Source of the DNA: Roseateles koreensis
GTDB lineage: Bacteria > Pseudomonadota > Gammaproteobacteria > Burkholderiales > Burkholderiaceae_C
Reading direction: 5' to 3'
Assembly: GCF_028595305.1 (NCBI RefSeq)
Contig: NZ_JAQQXS010000001.1
Coordinates: forward strand, 310,001 to 374,000
Length of the DNA stretch: 64,000 nt
Shown: piece by piece, positions 2,858 through 12,653 of the stretch
How the letters are laid out: each line of letters begins with the position of its first letter
Numbering within the stretch: the stretch's first letter is position 1
Notes under the pieces: generated by a model
What the model was told of the DNA's origin: nothing
Databases searched by the model: none
What the model saw: only the letters and a program-made list of their open reading frames with translations
Made by a program: the position numbers and the translations under genes

Positions 2858-2871
2858 TTGATATCCGTCAA
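2858..2871. promoter_or_regulatory. FNR/Anr-like binding site
   Basis: TTGATATCCGTCAA matches the FNR/Anr consensus TTGAT-N4-ATCAA in nine of ten fixed positions. It sits 69 bases before the ATG of the cytochrome-porin gene and in the mgtA divergent region. This would place oxygen-responsive control on the cytochrome operon; the assignment is by motif only. Confidence 0.5.
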
Positions 2872-2939
2872 TGCTTTTGTGCGTTCTGCGCGCAAACTCG
2901 CCGAGGAAGTCAACTCAACTCATGTCAGGGGGTCCTACC

Positions 2940-4313
2940 ATGGAACTGTCAAAGAGAACGACTGGCCGCTGGGCATTGCGGCTGATGGCGGCGGTGCTGG
3001 CGCTCGGCAGCGTGAGCGCCCAGGCGGTGCCGGCCTATGCGCGCCAGACCGGGCAGAACTGCGTGGCCTGCCATGTCAGTTTTCCTGAGCTCACGCCCTA
3101 TGGCCGATGGTTCAAGCTGTCGGGCTACACCTTTGGGCAGCGGCAGACCCTGCCGGTGGCGATGATGGCGCAGCTCAGCCGCACCCAGATCAAGAACAAT
3201 GACGACGGCACGGGCACCGACACCTTGGTGACCGCCCGTGACCGAATGGCGGCCTTGAATGGCGCCAGCTTGTTCCTCGCCGGCAAGGTGAATGACAACG
3301 TCGGTGGTTTTGTGCAATGGACCTATTCTCAAAACTACAACACCGACGGCACCAGCAGCGGTCACAGCGGCATTGATAACACCGACCTGCGCTGGGTTGG
3401 CCGCATGAGCAGCGCGGACGCCAATGACGTCAAGCTGCTGTACGGCGCCACCCTGCATAACAATCCGACGGTGCAAGACGTCTGGAACAGCACGCCCGCG
3501 TTTGGCTACCCCTTCACCGGGTCACCCACTGCCGTGGGCCCCACCGCTGGTACGCAAATTGAAGGTGCCTTGGCTCAACAGGTGGCGGGGTTGGGGGCCT
3601 ACGCTTTTTACGACCGCACTTGGTACGGCGAAGTCACGGCCTACCGCACTGCAGATGGTCTGTTCGGCATTTTGCGCGCCGGACAGGACATCAACACCCC
3701 CGGAGGCGTCGCCAAGTTGAGCGGCTCCAACCCCTATGTGCGCGTTGCTTACAACCGGGAGTGGGGAGCCAACTCGTTGATGCTGGGTGTTTTTGGTCTG
3801 CAGATAGATCGTTATGTCGACAACACCGACACCAGCAGCGGCACCGACCGATACGCCGACCGAGGCATTGACGCTCAGTACCAGTACATCGGCAGCCCGC
3901 ACACCTTCACGGCGCAGGCCCGCTACATCCATGAGAAGCAGGACTACCGTTCCAGTTTCGCGCAAGGCGCAACGGCCAATCCAAGCGATGTGTTGAAGAC
4001 TTTGCAGCTCAAAGCCACCTATTACTACGATCACCAATACGGTGTCACGCTGAGCCACTTTTCCAGCTCAGGCACGGCTGACGCGTTGCTGTATCCCAGC
4101 GGCGCAGTCACCGGCAGCGCGAACGGGCGGCCCGACAGTTCAGGCAATATCGTCGAACTTGACTATCTGCCGATGCAAAACGTGCGTTTGATGATGCAGT
4201 ACACCGCCTATGACAAGTTCAACGGCAGCAGCGGCAGCGGTTATGACGGAGCGACCCTGCGCAGCCCAAGTGACAACAACACGGTGTTTTTGAATCTCTG
4301 GGTGTCTTTCTAA
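2940..4313 (+). CDS. Predicted fused monohaem cytochrome c / outer-membrane porin (Cyc2-like)
   Basis: A 457-residue exported protein. Residues 1-29 are a signal peptide; directly after it comes VPAYARQTGQNCVACH with a single CXXCH haem site at 41-45, followed by FPELTPYGRWFKLSGYTFG. From about residue 65 the rest is rich in alternating hydrophobic/polar segments with Tyr, Trp, Gly and Asn, and ends in LNLWVSF, a C-terminal Phe typical of outer-membrane beta-barrels. This layout, the length and the text around the haem resemble Cyc2, the fused cytochrome-porin of neutrophilic and acidophilic iron oxidisers. The start at 2940 is chosen because AGGGGG lies seven bases before it and a signal peptide begins there; an in-frame start at 2871 would add an unlikely leader. 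Followed after 14 bases by a dihaem cytochrome. The substrate is not shown by sequence. Confidence 0.72.
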   Translation: MELSKRTTGRWALRLMAAVLALGSVSAQAVPAYARQTGQNCVACHVSFPELTPYGRWFKLSGYTFGQRQTLPVAMMAQLSRTQIKNNDDGTGTDTLVTARDRMAALNGASLFLAGKVNDNVGGFVQWTYSQNYNTDGTSSGHSGIDNTDLRWVGRMSSADANDVKLLYGATLHNNPTVQDVWNSTPAFGYPFTGSPTAVGPTAGTQIEGALAQQVAGLGAYAFYDRTWYGEVTAYRTADGLFGILRAGQDINTPGGVAKLSGSNPYVRVAYNREWGANSLMLGVFGLQIDRYVDNTDTSSGTDRYADRGIDAQYQYIGSPHTFTAQARYIHEKQDYRSSFAQGATANPSDVLKTLQLKATYYYDHQYGVTLSHFSSSGTADALLYPSGAVTGSANGRPDSSGNIVELDYLPMQNVRLMMQYTAYDKFNGSSGSGYDGATLRSPSDNNTVFLNLWVSF

Positions 4314-4327
4314 AAAGGGGCTGAATC

Positions 4328-4978
4328 ATGAGTTCAAGCATCTATACATATCGGGTCCGCCCGGTCGTGGCGAGTTTGTTGCTGGCCTTGTCCGGTGCGG
4401 CCGTGGCTCAGGACGCCCCGGGTGCCAATGCCATTGCGCAGGCGGATCAGGCTGCGCAAAAGGTGGCTGCAACGATTTGCGCCTCGTGTCATGGTGCCAC
4501 CGGCACCAGCACGTCCCCCTTGTTCCCTCGTCTCGCCGGGCAGCAAGAAGCCTACCTGAATGCTCAACTGAAGGCCTTCAAGGGCAAGACACGGGGCGAG
4601 CAGGATGCGCACGACTACATGTGGGGCATGGCAACTTTGCTGGATGACGCCGTGATTGATGGCTTGTCGCGCTACTACGCGGCTCAAAAGCCTGCCCCGG
4701 GGATGCCGGGCGACCCGGCTCTGTTGGCTCGGGGCAAGGTACTTTATGAGCAAGGCGAGCCGGCTCGCCAGGTGGCGGCATGTTCTGCGTGCCATGGTGA
4801 AAACGCTGCAGGCGTGTCCATCTTTCCACGGCTGGCCGGGCAGCATGCGGCCTATGTGGTGCGGCAGTTGGATGCGATTCAACACAAGTTCCGCGATTCT
4901 CCCGTGATGCACGGCGTGATCAAAGAACTGGACCCGGCCGACATGAAGGCCGTGGCGGCCTATGTGCAGTCGCGCTGA
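4328..4978 (+). CDS. Periplasmic dihaem cytochrome c (c4 family)
   Basis: A 216-residue exported protein with signal peptide (residues 1-27) and two homologous cytochrome c domains. Haem sites are CASCH at 51-55 and CSACH at 152-156; each is followed by the c4-type segment FPRLAGQ, and Met98 or Met101 and Met194 are likely axial ligands. Cytochromes c4 carry electrons in the periplasm toward terminal oxidases. The gene lies 14 bases after the cytochrome-porin, so the two are almost certainly co-transcribed; in Acidithiobacillus ferrooxidans the iron-oxidation operon also begins with cyc2 followed by a c4-type dihaem cytochrome (Cyc1). No oxidase or cupredoxin gene follows here. The operon ends at the strong hairpin at 5015-5058. 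Confidence 0.88.
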   Translation: MSSSIYTYRVRPVVASLLLALSGAAVAQDAPGANAIAQADQAAQKVAATICASCHGATGTSTSPLFPRLAGQQEAYLNAQLKAFKGKTRGEQDAHDYMWGMATLLDDAVIDGLSRYYAAQKPAPGMPGDPALLARGKVLYEQGEPARQVAACSACHGENAAGVSIFPRLAGQHAAYVVRQLDAIQHKFRDSPVMHGVIKELDPADMKAVAAYVQSR

Positions 4979-5014: not shown

Positions 5015-5058
5015 AAAACGGGCGGGGCCGACTCAGAATAGTCGGCCCCGCCCGTTTT
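5015..5058. terminator. Bidirectional intrinsic terminator
   Basis: A perfect 18-base inverted repeat (5015-5032 and 5041-5058) with an 8-base loop, GC-rich core, flanked by AAAA and TTTT. It separates the convergent cytochrome operon (plus) and chemoreceptor gene (minus). Confidence 0.9.
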
Positions 5059-5073: not shown

Positions 5074-6624
5074 TTACCTCAGCTTGAAGAATGACACTGT
5101 CTGCACGAGGTGCAGCGCTTGTTGCCGCAGGCTTTCTGCCGCTGCGGCGCTTTGCTCGACCAGCGCTGCATTTTGTTGGGTGGTTTGGTCCATCTGGGTG
5201 ACTGCCTCACCCACCTGCGCCACACCGGAGCTTTGCTCGCTGCTGGCGCTGCTGATTTCACCCATGATGTCGGTGACACGGCGGATGGAGTTGACCACTT
5301 CTTGCATGGTGGCGCCGGCCTGGTCGACCAAGGCAGTGCCACTCTCGACCCGCTCGACGCTGGTAGAGATCAGGCTCTTGATCTCTTTGGCCGCGTCGGC
5401 ACTGCGCTGGGCGAGGCTGCGCACTTCGCTGGCCACGACGGCAAAACCACGACCCTGCTCCCCGGCTCGGGCGGCTTCCACCGCTGCATTCAAGGCCAGG
5501 ATATTGGTTTGAAACGCAATGCCGTCGATCACACTGATGATGTCGACGATGCGCTTGGAGCTGTCGTTGATGCCCTTCATGGTCTCGACCACCTGGCCGA
5601 CCACCTGGCCACCCTTGACCGCAACCGATGAGGCGCCCATGGCCAGCTGGTTGCCTTGCTTGGCGTTTTCGGCGTTTTGCGTGACGGTGGAGCCCAGCTC
5701 TTCCATCGACGCCGCCGTTTCTTCCAGTGCGCTGGCTTGTTGCTCGGTGCGCTGGCTGAGGTCTTGGTTGCCTTGGGCAATTTCAGCACTGGCCAGGGCC
5801 ACGTTGTCGGCGTTCGTGCGCACGGTGCCAACAATTTCGGAGAGCTTCTCCGTCATGGCGTTCAGGGTGTTCAGCAACTGCGAAATTTCGTCGCTGCCGT
5901 CAATGCGCAGGCTGTGTGTCAGATCACCTTCGGCAATTTGTTGGGCTGCTTTCACAGCCTGCGCAATGGGCTGGGTGATGAGGCGGGTCACGCAGAACGC
6001 CAGCGCCGTTGCGATGCCCGCCGCGATCACAAGGGCCACGATGACCCAAGTGCGTGATTGCCCGTAAATAGTCTTGGCGTTGTCGTAGGATCCGTCAGCG
6101 CCCTTGGCGTTGATTTCAACCAATTTGGATAAAACTGCGCTCATCGCACGAAAGGTTTCGCGGGACTCACCACGGTATATGGCTTTGGCTTCGTCATGCG
6201 TCTGCTCTCCGCCCCGGGACAATTTCAACAACTTGACGTGGGCTTGTCCGGTCGCCTTGTAGGCGGGGGCGAGCGTTTCGTAGGCGCGGCGCTCCTCGCC
6301 ATCCGTCACCATCGGTGCGTAGGTTTTGAGCAGGCTTTCGAATTTGCTGACGATACCGGCCATTTCTCTTTCAATGCCGTCCATCTCCTTGGTGTCCATG
6401 GCCATGACGTGGTTGGCCTGGAGACGGCGGAACTGATTGGCCGTGTCTTGCAACTCGCCAAGCACCTTGACGCTGGGCAGCCAGTTGCCGGCCAGATCCT
6501 CAACGTTGGCGTTGATGCGGCTCAGTTGTGAGATGGCAAAGCCACCCAGTGCCAATGTGAGCGCCACGACAATGGCAAAGGCCATGCCAAGTTTCGTGCC
6601 AAGTCGATAGTTGTTCAGATTCAT
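5074..6624 (-). CDS. Methyl-accepting chemotaxis protein
   Basis: A 516-residue membrane chemoreceptor that signals to CheA/CheW. Order: first membrane helix at about residues 12-32, a four-helix-bundle periplasmic sensor, second membrane helix near residue 190-210, HAMP domain, then the long cytoplasmic signalling helix. The hairpin tip is visible as [20 protein letters not shown] followed by [10 protein letters not shown], and glutamate/glutamine-rich methylation stretches flank it. The start at 6624 ([11 protein letters not shown]) has an AAAGG-type ribosome site and puts the first helix in the right place; an upstream in-frame ATG at 6681 would add 19 unlikely residues. The ligand is unknown. 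Stands alone, with no che genes nearby. Confidence 0.93.
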
Positions 6625-7028
6625 TGCCAGGACCTTTCTAGAGACGAGGTGCCGCAAACTTGCGGGGGCAAAGCAGGGCACGCGGGATAAACCCGTGGTT
6701 GCGCTGTATATCGGCAGCTTGCAGCAAGAGCTTAGGGGCAGGGATCATGTTGCTCCGCCCCCATTGACTGGCTGCGCACCATCCGGGGTGCCTTCAGTGC
6801 CAACTCAGGTCAATTCAGGCCAACTCGTGAATGGCCTGCCTGTGATTATTGGCAAGTTCCTGGCGGATTGCCATGCAAAAAGAGCGAACTTGGTGTTTAT
6901 CCTCGCCCGGTGTCGGTTACCGTCGAGTTTGGGGGTTTGTGTTGATGACGAGGCACTCCGCCTGCCGGAAACTGCAGGATTGACGTCGGCGGCTACAGTG
7001 CATTCTTCAGCGATTTGAAAGGTCTTGC
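6625..7028. other. Non-coding stretch between divergent genes
   Basis: About 400 bases between the divergent chemoreceptor and hydrolase genes. It holds the ribosome site of the chemoreceptor. No convincing gene, RNA or recognised operator was seen; short open frames here have no recognisable similarity. Confidence 0.6.
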
Positions 7029-8099: not shown

Positions 8100-8429
8100 T
8101 CATTCAAGGCTCGCCCAAGGCACCATGCAGCGCAATGCGCGTGGCCGCCAGGCCAGAATGAAGGCAATGGCGCACGAGGCAGTGGAGATCGACATCACCC
8201 AGACGAGCACGGCCATCGACAGATGATCGGCGCCGCAGCACAGCAGCAGCGAGCCGAACCATGCGGTGATGCCAAGCAGGCGCAATGCAGACACTTGTTT
8301 CCTGCCGATCGCTGTACTCTCGGCTCCGCGTATTTGCTGCCAGTGGACATCAAGTGAGGCCGCCAGCCAGACAGCGCCGGCCAGGCTGCACCATAGTGCC
8401 GCGAAGATGATCAAGGACTCAGAACGCAT
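8100..8429 (-). CDS. DUF3325-type small membrane protein of an iron-uptake operon
   Basis: A 109-residue protein with about three hydrophobic segments (near residues 6-24, 50-65 and 70-93) beginning MRSESLIIFAALWCSLAG. Small proteins of this kind (DUF3325) sit at the end of operons with PepSY-membrane and DUF3649 proteins beside siderophore receptors; their role is not known. The start at 8429 overlaps the end of the PepSY gene by 11 bases, pointing to translational coupling. A longer frame upstream would run deep into the PepSY gene and is rejected. Confidence 0.7.
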   Translation of the reverse strand: MRSESLIIFAALWCSLAGAVWLAASLDVHWQQIRGAESTAIGRKQVSALRLLGITAWFGSLLLCCGADHLSMAVLVWVMSISTASCAIAFILAWRPRALRCMVPWASLE

Positions 8430-10089
8430 GGCCTTCCTCCGCGGCTGCGCTGCGCTGGCTGGCGCCAGGCTGCAAGGCCGGCCAGCGCAGGCGAAGCCGG
8501 CGCGCGGTAGCCGTGGCCAGCAGGCCGACAGCCAGCAAGGCGATATCAACGCCGGCCACGGGCCAGTAGTGCTCGATGAAGACGGTCTTCAACAGATGAT
8601 CGCCGGTGGTGATGCTGTTCAGCATCAGCGCCGCAAACGCCAGCACGGCAATGGCGCAACACTGTTCGAACCAGGCCGGCGACGGTTGCACCGGGCGCAA
8701 CGGCTTGCTCCGCCAAGCGGCGTGGACGAATGAAAGAAGCCAGCTGGCCCAGAACGCGCGCTTCTCCCACTCACCACGCAGAGTCAGGTCTTGCGGCAAC
8801 AGCTGGTTGGCCACCAGGACGGCCAGCACGGCGATCAGCATGCCAGTTACTGTTGTAACGGCCATCGCATCGGCACAGCGGGCATGTCCCGGCTGTGCCC
8901 GCTTGCGCTTCTCGACGAAGAACAGGAAACCCGTGACGATGCAGACGCAGCCCGCCATGCCGCCAAACAGATAGAACCAGCGCAGTGCCCAATGTTCGAA
9001 CTGCTGAAGGTGCAGGCCGGTGAGGAACTCGTTGATCTTCGCCACCGTCGAGGGCTGGGGCTCCTCGAACAGCACTCGGCCGGTCGCGCCCTCAAAATGG
9101 ATGGCTTGGCCGAGCAGGGCCACGCGATCGCTGCCGCCGCGATAGACGGTCACGTAACTGTTCTTGTCGCCGGGATGGCTGATGTAGAGGTAGCCGACCT
9201 CACCGGCCATGCCGTGCGACGCCCAGCGGCGCTTGGCCTCGATGACCATTGCATCGACCGAGGCGATGGACGCTGGCACGCCAGAGGCTGCATAGGGCAG
9301 GTTCTTTGCCTGCGCCTCGGCGATCGCGGCGGCCGTGGCCTGCGGCTTCAGCAGCGTCTCCGAAACCGGCAGGTATATGCCAGCGAAGATCGTCAGGCCC
9401 GTCAGCGCGAAGAAGAAGTGGAAGGGCAGCGCGACCACGCCGGTCAGGTTGTGCAGGTCTAGCGTGCTGCGCTGGACGTGCTTCTTCGGTCGGAAGGTAA
9501 AGAACTCGCGGAACAGGCGGCGGTGGATAACCACGCCCGAGACCAGTGCGGCCAGCATCACCAGCGCCGCCAGGCCGACGATCCAGTAGCCTAGATTCCT
9601 CCAGCCGATGTGCAGGCTGATATGCATCGGGTAGAAGAACTCGCTGCCGATCTTCAGCTGGTCGTCGCGCAGCACCCGGCCGTTGCGTGGGTCGACGGTG
9701 ACGTGGCCATGCACATGGTCGTCTGCATCGTTGGGGTTGCCCGGCACGGCGTACTCGGCATAGAGGCCAACAACGGGATCGCGGTGCGTCGTGTAGGCGG
9801 CCCAGTTGAGCGGTTTCAGCTCGGTTGGCAGCGGCGATTTGACGCGCCCGCCCGCAGCTTCGAGTTCGTCCGCCGCGGGCTTCATCTGCGCAAAGATTGG
9901 CGCCAGCATGCTGTCGTAAGACGGCATGGTCTGCGCGGCGAAGCGGGTTTCGGGTAGCGCCCAGCGGTCGAACTCGCGGTCGAACACCGATAGGGAACCG
10001 AAAAAAAAGATGACGATCAGCAGGTAACCCAGCACCAGGCCCAGCCAGGTGTGCAGCCAACTCATCGAAAGACGAAAGCTCGAAAACAT
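8419..10089 (-). CDS. PepSY-associated membrane protein, ferrisiderophore-reductase-like
   Basis: A 556-residue inner-membrane protein. It starts with an amphipathic His-containing helix (MSWLHTWLGLVLGYLLI), has a large periplasmic section, then a cluster of membrane helices with paired histidines (MHISLHIGWRNLGYW, DLHNLTGVV, GLHLQQFEHWALRW) that suit haem b binding, and a final block of four or five helices. This matches PepSY-TM proteins such as FoxB/FegB, which help release iron from siderophores at the inner membrane. It lies in a minus-strand operon after the DUF3649 gene and before the DUF3325 gene, divergent from a TonB-dependent receptor and behind shared Fur boxes. The reductase role is inferred from the family. 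Confidence 0.85.
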   Translation of the reverse strand: MFSSFRLSMSWLHTWLGLVLGYLLIVIFFFGSLSVFDREFDRWALPETRFAAQTMPSYDSMLAPIFAQMKPAADELEAAGGRVKSPLPTELKPLNWAAYTTHRDPVVGLYAEYAVPGNPNDADDHVHGHVTVDPRNGRVLRDDQLKIGSEFFYPMHISLHIGWRNLGYWIVGLAALVMLAALVSGVVIHRRLFREFFTFRPKKHVQRSTLDLHNLTGVVALPFHFFFALTGLTIFAGIYLPVSETLLKPQATAAAIAEAQAKNLPYAASGVPASIASVDAMVIEAKRRWASHGMAGEVGYLYISHPGDKNSYVTVYRGGSDRVALLGQAIHFEGATGRVLFEEPQPSTVAKINEFLTGLHLQQFEHWALRWFYLFGGMAGCVCIVTGFLFFVEKRKRAQPGHARCADAMAVTTVTGMLIAVLAVLVANQLLPQDLTLRGEWEKRAFWASWLLSFVHAAWRSKPLRPVQPSPAWFEQCCAIAVLAFAALMLNSITTGDHLLKTVFIEHYWPVAGVDIALLAVGLLATATARRLRLRWPALQPGASQRSAAAEEGHAF

Positions 10090-10110
10090 ATGTAAAAAAG
10101 CTCCGCAGGT

Positions 10111-10416
10111 TCAGATGGACAAGGGCGTCAGCCAAGCGCCCAGGGCAGTCATGGCCACGCCGCCACCCAGCAGCACCAGCCAGGCGCGCCAGGCACTCGC
10201 AGCCGCGTAGCACCAGCAAAAGGCCGCGAGCCAGACCAAGAAGGCCAGCAGGTACATGGCCATCTGGGCATCTGCATAGGGCATGCCGATACGAAGCAAG
10301 GCTGCGATGCCCAGCATCACCAGGCCAAAGACAAAGATCCAGCCGCCAATGAAGCTGGCAGCGATGCGGGAGGCGACTTCGAACGGTGGCGGAGGAGTGG
10401 TCATTGCAACTTTCAA
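10111..10416 (-). CDS. DUF3649-type iron-uptake membrane protein
   Basis: A 101-residue protein with three predicted membrane helices (about 15-40, 48-72 and 76-97) and a proline-rich N-terminus. It fits the DUF3649 family of small proteins found first in operons with PepSY-membrane and DUF3325 proteins. It is the first gene of its operon, 21 bases before the PepSY gene, and begins directly next to the Fur boxes at 10421-10474. Function within the family is unknown; association with iron uptake comes from context. Confidence 0.72.
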   Translation of the reverse strand: MKVAMTTPPPPFEVASRIAASFIGGWIFVFGLVMLGIAALLRIGMPYADAQMAMYLLAFLVWLAAFCWCYAAASAWRAWLVLLGGGVAMTALGAWLTPLSI

Positions 10417-10420
10417 ACGC

Positions 10421-10437
10421 GATTAATTCTCATTATC
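10421..10437. promoter_or_regulatory. Fur box 1
   Basis: GATTAATTCTCATTATC resembles the Fur consensus built of GATAAT/ATTATC units. It lies directly in front of the minus-strand DUF3649 operon, in the intergenic region shared with the siderophore receptor. Confidence 0.65.
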
Positions 10438-10459
10438 GCAACACTTCACGGATTTTAAA

Positions 10460-10474
10460 TGAGAATCAATCTCA
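10460..10474. promoter_or_regulatory. Fur box 2
   Basis: TGAGAATCAATCTCA is a 7-1-7 inverted repeat with six of seven paired positions and matches the Fur 7-1-7 consensus TGATAAT-C-ATTATCA well. It lies 53 bases before the receptor start and can serve both divergent promoters. Confidence 0.75.
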
Positions 10475-10526
10475 AATAATATAGAGTCGTATCCGCATTT
10501 GCAAAAATGAACCCACGAATAAAACC

Positions 10527-12653
10527 ATGAAAACTCACTTCCTGATGACGGCCTGCGCCTTGGCTGCATTGATTGCGATCGCCGACGTCGCCCAGGCCCA
10601 GGCCCAGGCCGAAGCCCAGAGCACATCCACGCTGGAGAAGATCGTCGTCACCGGCAAGCGCGCCAACCGCGTCTCCAAGGGCGCCACCGGCTTGGCGATG
10701 GATATCAAGGACACGCCGCAGTCGATCAGCTCGATCGACAAGGAGGACCTGACCAACTTCGGCCTGACCGGCAGTAACGAAGCGCTGGCCATGGCCACCG
10801 GCATCAACGTGGAGCAGTACGAGACCAATCGTGCCACCTTCAATTCACGTGGCTTCGAGATCCAACTGACCCAGATGGATGGTCTGGGCATGACCAATTC
10901 CTGGGGCACCGTCGTCGGACGCGAGGATACCTTCCTCTTCGAAAGTATCGAGGTGATCCGTGGCGCCAACGGCCTGCTCACCGGCGTCGGCAATTCCTCG
11001 GGCACGATCAACTACATCCGCAAGCGCCCGAAAAACGAGGATGGCGGCGAGTTCGGTGTGAGCTTCGGCTCCTGGGGCTTGAAGCGGGCTGAGCTGGACT
11101 ACAACAAGGTATTCACCCAGGACGGCAGCTGGGCTGGCCGCTTGGTCGTGGCTTCCGAGGACAAGGATTCCTTCACCCGCGACCTCCACAACAAGCGCAA
11201 CACGATCTATGGGGTCGTCGACGGGCAGATCGGGCAGAACGGCACGCTGACCGTGGGCTTGACCGCTGTCGACGCGAAGCAGAATGCGCCGATGTGGGGT
11301 TCTCTGACGCTGCTGCACGCGGAGGGCTCGCAGGCCGATTTCCCGGTGAGCTCTTCCACCTCGGCCAACTGGGCCTACTGGAACACCCAGTCCTACAACG
11401 CCTTTGCCGAGTACACGCACCGCCTGACGCAAGACTGGGAAGCCAAGCTTACCTATAACGTCCGCCATGCCAACGAGGCGACGAAGCTGCTCTATGCCTA
11501 CTCGTACACCGGCGTGTTGAACAACGACAACACCGGCTTGGTCGGCTGGCCTTACCGCAGCCAGGGCAGCACGGATGACAGCGTTCTGGACGCCAACGTC
11601 AGTGGCCCGTTCTCGGCCTTCGGTCGCAAGCACACCCTGCTGGTGGGTCTGAGCCGTTCGCATGAAAAGACGGCCGTGGACACGTACGCTGCGCTGACGC
11701 ATATGGGGGACTCCTTGCCCGCCTTCCCCTACGGCGGTAACGCCTACGCCGAACCCGATTGGGCCGTGCGCGCGCCAAGCACCCGCGGTCAGCAGACGCT
11801 GACACGCATGTACGTGGCCTCTCGCCTGGTGCTGACCGACAACCTCAAGGCCATCGTCGGATTGAATGCAGTGCATCTCGAACGCAGCGGCGCCTCGATC
11901 TACGGCAGCGCGGCCACCAACACCGAGTATCCGGACACCAACAAGTTCAGCCCCTATGTTGGCCTGACCTATGATTTCACGCCTGACGTGCTGGGCTATG
12001 TCTCCTACTCGGACATCTTCCAGAACCAGGACCAGACCGACCACGGCGGCCACTACCTCGCGCCGATGAAGGGCGTGAACGCGGAGACTGGCATCAAGGC
12101 CGAATGGCTGAATAAGCAGTTGATGACCACCTTCGCCCTCTTCACTGCCAAGCAGCAGAACCTGGCCACCTACGCCGGCCTCATCACCGACGTGCCGACG
12201 ACCGACCCGCGCTACAACACCAATTGGTACGAGGGCAAGGACGTCCGGTCTAAGGGCTTTGAACTGGAGGCAGTCGGTCGCCTGAGCAAGGACACCAAGG
12301 TTTCGCTGGGCTACACCCACCTGATCTTGACCGGCCCCGACGGCAAGGACATCTACGAATGGGTGCCGCGCAACACACTCAAAGCCCGCGTCGAAAGCCG
12401 CATGCCCGCGCTGCCAGAGTTGCACCTCGGCCTGGCCGGCCGCTGGCAGTCAGAGATCAGCAACGTCAGCTATGGCAAGCAGTCGGGCTACGCGGTCGCC
12501 GATGTGTTCGCTTCGTACGCGCTCAACTCGAAGATGACAGTGCGCCTGAACGTCGACAACCTGAGCGACAAGAAATACATCACCGGCCTGGCCTACGGCG
12601 CCCTGTACGGCGCGCCGCGCAGTTACGGCGTGTCGCTGGACTACAAGCTCTGA
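10527..12653 (+). CDS. TonB-dependent ferric siderophore receptor
   Basis: A 708-residue outer-membrane receptor. Residues 1-24 are a signal peptide; a TonB box-like LEKIVVTG follows, then the plug domain (DTPQSISSIDKEDL, SRGFEIQ, ESIEVIRGANGLLTGVGNSSGTINYIRKRP) typical of FhuE/FoxA/FpvA-type hydroxamate siderophore receptors. The barrel ends in SYGVSLDYKL. Length is normal for the family. Fur boxes upstream and the divergent PepSY operon support iron-repressed uptake of a ferrisiderophore. No siderophore synthesis genes are present, so the compound may be foreign to the cell. The exact ligand cannot be read from the sequence. Confidence 0.92.
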   Translation: MKTHFLMTACALAALIAIADVAQAQAQAEAQSTSTLEKIVVTGKRANRVSKGATGLAMDIKDTPQSISSIDKEDLTNFGLTGSNEALAMATGINVEQYETNRATFNSRGFEIQLTQMDGLGMTNSWGTVVGREDTFLFESIEVIRGANGLLTGVGNSSGTINYIRKRPKNEDGGEFGVSFGSWGLKRAELDYNKVFTQDGSWAGRLVVASEDKDSFTRDLHNKRNTIYGVVDGQIGQNGTLTVGLTAVDAKQNAPMWGSLTLLHAEGSQADFPVSSSTSANWAYWNTQSYNAFAEYTHRLTQDWEAKLTYNVRHANEATKLLYAYSYTGVLNNDNTGLVGWPYRSQGSTDDSVLDANVSGPFSAFGRKHTLLVGLSRSHEKTAVDTYAALTHMGDSLPAFPYGGNAYAEPDWAVRAPSTRGQQTLTRMYVASRLVLTDNLKAIVGLNAVHLERSGASIYGSAATNTEYPDTNKFSPYVGLTYDFTPDVLGYVSYSDIFQNQDQTDHGGHYLAPMKGVNAETGIKAEWLNKQLMTTFALFTAKQQNLATYAGLITDVPTTDPRYNTNWYEGKDVRSKGFELEAVGRLSKDTKVSLGYTHLILTGPDGKDIYEWVPRNTLKARVESRMPALPELHLGLAGRWQSEISNVSYGKQSGYAVADVFASYALNSKMTVRLNVDNLSDKKYITGLAYGALYGAPRSYGVSLDYKL

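Follow-up and report, generated by a model that had tools for sequence, protein, structure and literature searches.

A 64,000-nucleotide stretch of the Roseateles koreensis genome (contig NZ_JAQQXS010000001.1, positions 310,001 to 374,000), referred to here as the window, contains between its positions 2858 and 4978 a gene for a Cyc2-family cytochrome-porin (cyc2) followed by one for a dihaem cytochrome c4, and with a rough probability of 0.55 we read the two as an outer-membrane conduit of the Cyc2/Cyc1 kind that is induced by FNR at low oxygen and passes electrons from Fe(II) to a cbb3 oxidase. The family, its spread and the pairing of the two genes are of a known kind, and what is new here is the probable FNR-type promoter which, together with the fact that the pair stands alone, goes beyond an earlier, sequence-only reading of this DNA. 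That reading had likened the genes to the opening of the Acidithiobacillus iron-oxidation operon, Cyc2 then Cyc1, a likeness now supported by motif, predicted barrel, phylogenetic tree and comparison with the PDB.

A Cyc2-family cytochrome-porin and its c4 partner

By motif, predicted barrel and tree, the first protein is a member of the Cyc2 family, whose hallmarks are a signal peptide, a single CXXCH haem site, the motif AXPXFAR[Q/K][T/Y], a PXL motif and a 16-stranded porin, with a minimum length of 365 amino acids (aa) (Keffer et al. 2021, PMC8406198). The window protein, presumed to reside in the outer membrane, has 457 aa and is encoded at 2940..4313 of the + strand. Its signal peptide, judged by eye to cover about residues 1-29 (2940..3026, +; likely cleavage between AQA and VP), leads directly into VPAYARQTGQNCVACHVSFPEL, and its only CXXCH, the haem c site CVACH at residues 41-45 (3060..3074, +), stands in the string AVPAYARQT-GQN-CVACH-VSF-PEL (that is, AVPAYARQTGQN-CVACH-VSF-PEL). 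Here the longer motif appears as AVPAYARQT, with a single conservative change of Y for F that also occurs in relatives such as loci L002 and L013, and PXL appears as PEL, three residues (VSF) past CVACH. The C-terminus reads WVSF, in keeping with the earlier description of a signal peptide, one CXXCH and a barrel ending in Phe.

Relatives come from GTDB genomes, in which a scan confirmed 579 places; the best 80 of these, which are the nearest relatives and an uneven sample, form the basis of the counts out of 80 given below. Across a 73-row alignment (the window protein and 72 of the 80 loci), A29, P31, Q36, T37, C41, C44, H45 and L51 are invariant, a conservation owed partly to selection because one of the two peptide patterns by which the loci were found was the haem motif itself. 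From this alignment AlphaFold2 predicts 16 long strands over residues 73-456 (3156..4307, +) and a 3-residue strand at 45-47 (mean pLDDT 89.2, pTM 0.86), so that the barrel suspected from the sequence is present in the model, with lower confidence in the haem-bearing N-terminal part (block means 55-76, residues 21-50). Foldseek returns 292 PDB matches at E up to 0.001 (best E 1.2e-9), mostly general porins of the OmpC/OmpF/OmpK36 type, and in the 50 rows shown the TM-score is 0.53-0.63 by target length and 0.41-0.49 by query length, with a root-mean-square deviation of 6.5-13; the modelled fold class is that of a porin, superposing loosely on the PDB porins, and the haem plug presumably takes the position that it has in the model of Keffer et al. 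(PMC8406198). By sequence, no solved structure matches the protein below E 3.9, and no Pfam or NCBIfam model does so at E up to 10. An ordinary porin with a chance CXXCH was considered and rejected, because the 73 rows, themselves partly motif-selected, conserve the haem site together with barrel positions. Met76 (3165-3167, in strand 1) is nearly invariant in the alignment and could be the distal haem ligand.

The tree, a quick IQ-TREE run of 118 rows with SH-aLRT support, was built after removal of same-place duplicates, four rows of a group termed f239, and L100, L123, L124 and L142 (no full open reading frame with the haem motif); its rows include no named reference Cyc2, and the characterised Cyc2 of Acidithiobacillus ferrooxidans (AfCyc2) is represented in it by a stand-in, the Cyc2 of genome G361. 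The neighbours of the window protein are Rhodanobacteraceae and betaproteobacterial bins (it is 62% identical to L021), and the 69-row node that contains it, with a support of 100, also includes both Cyc2 proteins of G361, placing it with the Cyc2 of a rus-like operon and not with unrelated porins. A rusticyanin-family match of 137 bits (cut-off 146.7) is found ~7 kb downstream of one G361 Cyc2 gene, and between the two lie genes for a cupredoxin-like protein, oxidase subunit I and a CtaA-like protein (by eye); no c4 match was seen within 1.5 kb downstream of either G361 Cyc2, which is why we term the operon rus-like. Three other genomes, G455, G249 and G305 (the sole one above the rusticyanin cut-off, with a contig that begins at a cup-like gene), yielded no tree anchor because none has a match to the family model. 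A long branch (0.47 and 1.82 on either side of the drawn root) parts the window side from six f239 copies and from L016, L017 and L020, a split to be read with caution in that long branches meet at the drawn root of the 118-row tree. The f239 group belongs to another class and has small genomes. The phylum sample of 398 genomes contains 89 with a match, and 65 of these are of f239; judging by the known biology of that class, we take the group to be probably Zetaproteobacteria.

The best 80 of the 579 places include Rhodanobacter, Dyella, Ralstonia, Paraburkholderia, Burkholderia, Methylophilaceae, Chromobacteriaceae, Pseudomonas fluorescens and many metagenome bins; the source genome itself has one cyc2 match, and 16 of 98 other genomes drawn as relatives have a Cyc2 match. 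Family and spread were already known, since Li et al. (2023, PMC10654088) connect AfCyc2, and Cyc1 likewise, to homologues in Rhodanobacteraceae, Burkholderiales, Chromobacteriaceae and others. Two cases of unusual likeness were seen in passing. Near-identical Cyc2 proteins occur in bins labelled Rhizobium and Thiobacillus denitrificans (L068 and L069; end branches 0.005 and 0.0043), which may reflect a mislabelled bin or a recent transfer. A same-looking plasmid segment is shared by the iron oxidiser At. ferrooxidans YQ-N3 (L172) and by Acidiphilium cryptum pACRY03 (L173), a member of an iron-reducing genus, and carries beside a transposase a Cyc2-like gene, 34.9% identical to the window protein, that is annotated as a hypothetical protein.

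The second protein (216 aa; 4328..4978, +) begins 14 bases after the cyc2 stop codon and has a Sec-type signal peptide (by eye) and two haem sites, CASCH at 4478..4492 (+) and CSACH at 4781..4795 (+); Pfam assigns it to cytochrome c, which agrees with the dihaem c4 reported at that distance from the sequence alone. Its best PDB match is 1h1o (cytochrome c-552; E 1.6e-38, 135.7 bits, the next at 109.8), which we take to be Cyc1/CYC41 of At. ferrooxidans. The genome encodes three other c4-like proteins, 34-37% identical to that of the window, and one of them, examined as a control (L164), scores 161.6 bits to an ordinary c4 protein and 82.1 to 1h1o; these scores support a closer likeness of the window c4 to Cyc1 than to housekeeping c4. 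The best NCBIfam match, the dihaem periplasmic shuttle PdsA (NF049874), is alike in its two haems, and with 51.4 bits against a cut-off of 330 the c4 protein is not of the PdsA family.

In 68 of the 80 loci cyc2 is followed within 1.5 kb, on the same strand, by a c4 match, so the pairing is not a product of chance; among the remaining 12 the match overlaps the gene end (L039) or lies upstream (L052), fewer than 750 bases are left (L057 and L095), or there is none (eight). Within the Burkholderiales, c4 follows in L001 (the window's own locus), L003, L004, L005, L007, L008, L018 and, weakly, L017, and a one-haem cytochrome follows in L002, L006, L009 and L014; no c4 was seen downstream in L010-L013, L015, L016 and L020 (with 246 bases left in L020 and a one-CXXCH frame 676 bases on in L015). 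When neighbouring genes were clustered, no other partner accompanied cyc2 as regularly as c4. A merged group of response regulators lies near 20 of 75 loci, and 3 of the 80 have homologues of a HiPIP gene that stands near one Caballeronia copy. A CcsB/ResC-like cytochrome c maturation gene stands 3' of cyc2-c4 in L049, L055, L056, L058, L059 and L063 (by eye), a clade without the FNR box; L087, the seventh member of that cluster, looked like a wrong-frame open reading frame.

FNR-type boxes upstream of cyc2

An FNR/Anr-type box, TTGATATCCGTCAA, lies at 2858..2871 (+), one mismatch from TTGAT-N4-ATCAA and with its centre 75 bases before the cyc2 start codon. The same box is enriched upstream of cyc2 in relatives. 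Upstream windows of ~330 bases were compared for 80 loci (79 from the GTDB scan and the window; L100 was dropped, as no haem motif was found), and a perfect TTGAT-N4-ATCAA occurs in 17 of them and one with at most one mismatch in 28, where dinucleotide shuffles gave 0.1 and 1.0. It ranks first among 1024 palindromes of the same shape (17, with 3 for the runner-up), perfect boxes number 18 per 26 kb of upstream windows versus 9 per 1,034 kb elsewhere in the same loci, and when the proteins are thinned at 70% identity, a perfect box remains in 12 of the 44 representatives and one within one mismatch in 20. Outside f239, a further 32 distinct loci, beyond the 80 covered by the shuffles, gave 6 perfect boxes and 12 with at most one mismatch, and the second Cyc2 of G361 is among them; no box within one mismatch was found in nine testable f239 copies (11 fetched), in the rus-like L118 or in L016, L017 and L020.

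In the 28 box-bearing regions (27 from the GTDB scan and the window), TATAAT-like hexamers peak at offset 21 past the box in the direction of cyc2, with four or more matches in 10 of the 28, against a mean over offsets of 1.5 and no offset above 4 of 28 in the opposite direction; an offset of 21 is the spacing of class II FNR promoters. At that spacing the window has a possible, weak -10 element, CAAACT (2893..2898, +; 3/6 to TATAAT).

The source genome has 11 perfect boxes against 0 for the reversed pattern, one of them 106 bases before ccoN, one between fnr and the likely hemN start (the called hemN frame starts upstream of it) and another preceding a second CRP/FNR-family gene. It also encodes a CRP/FNR-family regulator (G000:C1:387764-388453) that has N-terminal cysteines (by eye) and is 49% identical to the FNR-like protein of L025. 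The enrichment of the box, the box of the window, this FNR-like regulator and the perfect boxes before ccoN and by fnr/hemN together make it probable that low oxygen induces the pair and that FNR controls the window copy. FNR control of cyc2 was not found in the open-licence papers searched; a contrast is offered by Sideroxydans ES-1, in which cyc2 is among the top expressed genes on Fe(II) and thiosulfate alike (PMC8788666). The surroundings of the pair in L025 (491-11684) have the look of a low-oxygen island, with a hemerythrin-like protein, universal stress proteins, a HemN-like protein, an ADP-forming acetyl-CoA synthetase, a P-type ATPase and the FNR-like regulator (by eye).

A number of observations weigh against an FNR-induced iron conduit. 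For the promoter, the window box has one mismatch and the window -10 just 3/6, a simple scan finds no sigma-70 promoter at the window box, and such a scan lists 2850-2871, a 9-bp stem that includes the box, as a terminator-like hairpin (the region has 4 such hairpins, with 2.6 expected). The box could also serve the divergent P-type ATPase gene, as the region is shared. Among the relatives, 52 of the 80 upstream windows have no box within one mismatch, including those of all 12 members of the Burkholderia/Caballeronia clade, and in the 12 held-out box-bearing loci no offset exceeds 2/12 strong -10 matches (offset 22 has a mean of 2.75 and 2/12 strong, and offsets 7 and 42 also reach 2/12). Of the 11 perfect boxes in the genome, only two stand at textbook FNR targets and one precedes the second CRP/FNR-family gene; the rest are at unrelated genes or, in several cases, inside genes. 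For the role in iron oxidation, FNR control is silent on the direction of electron flow, the anchor operon of G361 has no cyc1 and a rusticyanin match under the family cut-off, and the literature searched gave no iron phenotype for the subclade of the window protein. Finally, only 2 of 17 other genomes of the genus have a match, both of another Cyc2 lineage. Since two other species of the genus carry that different lineage, Cyc2 is patchy within it; these copies, L009 in G003 and L006 in G005, have a one-haem cytochrome downstream.

Proposed electron route and direction

In the route we favour, the two genes would be read as one transcript that starts under the FNR-type site at 2858-2871 and ends at a terminator-like hairpin at 5015..5058 (+; 19-bp stem, 6-base loop, end TTTTGTTT). 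This hairpin, placed between c4 and a convergent chemoreceptor gene, folds at -44 kcal/mol (z -7.55; 0/200 shuffles fold as well), and four T of TTTTGTTT pair within the stem; it is absent from the list of the simple terminator scan. The Cyc2 protein would form a 16-stranded barrel with one haem on an N-terminal plug, presumably at the periplasmic mouth. An outside reductant, most likely dissolved Fe(II) or something similar, would enter the barrel from outside and reduce the plug haem. The soluble dihaem c4 would then carry electrons between the plug haem and the inner-membrane respiratory chain. The FNR-type site would turn the pair on at low oxygen together with the cbb3 oxidase, whose high affinity would make it the natural sink in that state, and the host would probably also be able to use H2 and fix CO2. 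In Zetaproteobacteria, cyc2 is reported to rise after addition of Fe(II), with cyc1 up in 4/5 and cbb3 genes up in 2/4 genomes (McAllister et al. 2020, PMC7029218).

The sequence-only reading had proposed electron uptake from Fe(II) or a solid. The Cyc2-like conduit that this calls for stands, and uptake becomes one option only, in that the Cyc1B/Cyc2B pair of At. ferrooxidans rises with Fe(III); as for the solid, Keffer et al. (PMC8406198) argue that one-haem Cyc2 serves dissolved Fe(II) instead. This B pair (DN052_01245-01250, PMC7735108) is by description the closest parallel in gene plan and oxygen response among the systems compared here, being a two-gene homologue cluster that is raised anaerobically, and differs in its extremely acidophilic host; it is likened here by description, not by sequence, and the available text of PMC7735108 does not contain the word Fnr. 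It also gives weight to a serious though less probable alternative, in which the same conduit would work in reverse at low oxygen, from c4 through Cyc2 to Fe(III) or another outside acceptor, with H2 as a possible donor by way of a NiFe hydrogenase. Both Cyc1B/Cyc2B and the rus copies are raised in anaerobic Fe(III) growth, including growth on H2, and Cyc2 has been proposed as the terminal Fe(III) reductase of At. ferrooxidans (PMC7735108, PMC8790237). An FNR box suits such an anaerobic role, the host has hydrogenase genes, and Cyc2-like genes occur on plasmids of Acidiphilium, a genus that includes Fe(III) reducers. The energetics are less favourable, as the Fe(II)/ferrihydrite couple at neutral pH lies at -110 to +110 mV versus +208 mV for Mariprofundus Cyc2, a protein shown to accept electrons from Fe(II) (PMC8406198), so that reduction of mineral Fe(III) would be uphill, although chelated Fe(III) could still work; moreover, the B copies of At. 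ferrooxidans are less abundant than the A copies on H2 (PMC7735108).

It is improbable that the pair serves detoxification of Fe(II) or redox sensing without energy gain, Fe(II) being oxidised outside the cell so that damage inside is avoided. The presence of the pair in genera not known for iron oxidation, its low-oxygen promoter and a catalase-peroxidase adjoining it in L038 (by eye) would fit this role, whereas a dedicated c4 shuttle in so many of the loci and its likeness to Cyc1 point to the respiratory chain. Equally unlikely is a barrel that has drifted to another electron donor or acceptor without a role in iron, which would accord with the view of Keffer et al. (PMC8406198) that the function of many homologues, those of Clusters 2 and 3 in particular, awaits verification and may be another, and which is at odds with the retention of motif, barrel and shuttle, though in partly motif-selected rows.

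Among known systems, the pair resembles the opening of the rus operon of Acidithiobacillus, whose AfCyc2 (Cluster 2, PMC7029218), compared here through the stand-in from the cyc1-less operon of G361, shares with the window protein the signal peptide, the one CXXCH, the motif and a predicted 16-stranded barrel and has a Cyc1-type c4 as its neighbour. Unlike that operon, the window has no cup, coxBACD or rusticyanin downstream and has a probable FNR-type promoter, and a cbb3 oxidase is predicted for its host. A fused cytochrome-porin is likewise found in Mariprofundus ferrooxydans PV-1 and other Cluster 1 neutrophiles, whereas the f239 group, presumably their representatives here, lies on the far side of the long branch; no c4 match was seen downstream in ten f239 loci, where the DNA covered 0.5-0.8 kb in nine and 2 bases in L148. 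The MtoAB, PioAB and MtrCAB systems also move electrons across the outer membrane, through a 26-stranded porin with a separate decahaem protein (PMC8406198), in contrast to the 16 strands and one haem of the window. A search of the genome for MtrB/PioB gave no match, and since it matched no control genome either it does not establish absence.

Neighbourhood, host and meaning of the pair

The pair stands alone in the window. The open reading frame that contains cyc2 runs from 2871 to 4313, with its likely start at ATG 2940 preceded by a ribosome-binding site, AGGGGG, read off the sequence at 2927..2932 (+). Upstream, an intergenic region separates it from a divergent P-type cation ATPase gene (1-2664, -), and downstream of the hairpin comes the convergent chemoreceptor gene (5074-6681, -), so that, as had been noted from the sequence for oxidase and rusticyanin, no oxidase, rusticyanin, cup or coxBACD gene follows 3' of the pair. 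A shared operon with PepSY and TonB-receptor genes at 8419-12653 was rejected, because the hairpin and the oppositely oriented chemoreceptor gene intervene. Base composition gives little sign of recent import: the GC content of cyc2 (0.603) equals the window value, and the third-position value (GC3) of c4 (0.700) is just below the 0.711-0.858 range of eight other open reading frames. L023 likewise has a fragment of a similar P-type ATPase in divergent orientation upstream of the pair, and in L022, L025 and L085 P-type ATPases lie close to the pair (by eye).

The description of the genome as heterotroph-like does not hold. RuBisCO large chain and phosphoribulokinase are present (Pfam), the cbb operon looks whole, with its remaining genes identified by eye, and a NiFe hydrogenase large subunit matches at 706 bits, with a second copy in two stretches; no match above cut-off was found for SoxB in the genome (52 of 550 bits). 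Because of these RuBisCO, phosphoribulokinase and hydrogenase genes the host is not simply heterotrophic, and by its gene content it is probably a facultative H2-oxidising autotroph; CO2-fixation genes alone are no argument for iron, as H2 is available as a donor. The cbb operon lies directly downstream of a CzcCBA-like metal efflux set (G000:C3:28000-47000, L167; by eye), and the hydrogenase matches are at C3:49983 and C3:65433.

The role of Cyc2 relatives outside the known iron oxidisers is an open question in print (PMC8406198), and in this host a lithotrophic role is plausible in view of the genes predicted for CO2 fixation and hydrogenase. The FNR-type promoter offers a testable handle, as genes with the box are expected to be low in well-aerated culture and on at low oxygen, and low expression in aerated culture could mask a phenotype. 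A wider proposal, more doubtful still than reverse flow alone, is that an FNR-switched Cyc2-Cyc1 cassette is present in many proteobacteria that are not known to oxidise iron and operates in both directions, passing electrons from Fe(II) to cbb3 oxidase with trace oxygen and respiratory electrons, here derived from H2, to outside Fe(III) without oxygen. If so, the hosts of this cassette would be overlooked participants at the redox boundary of soils and aquifers.

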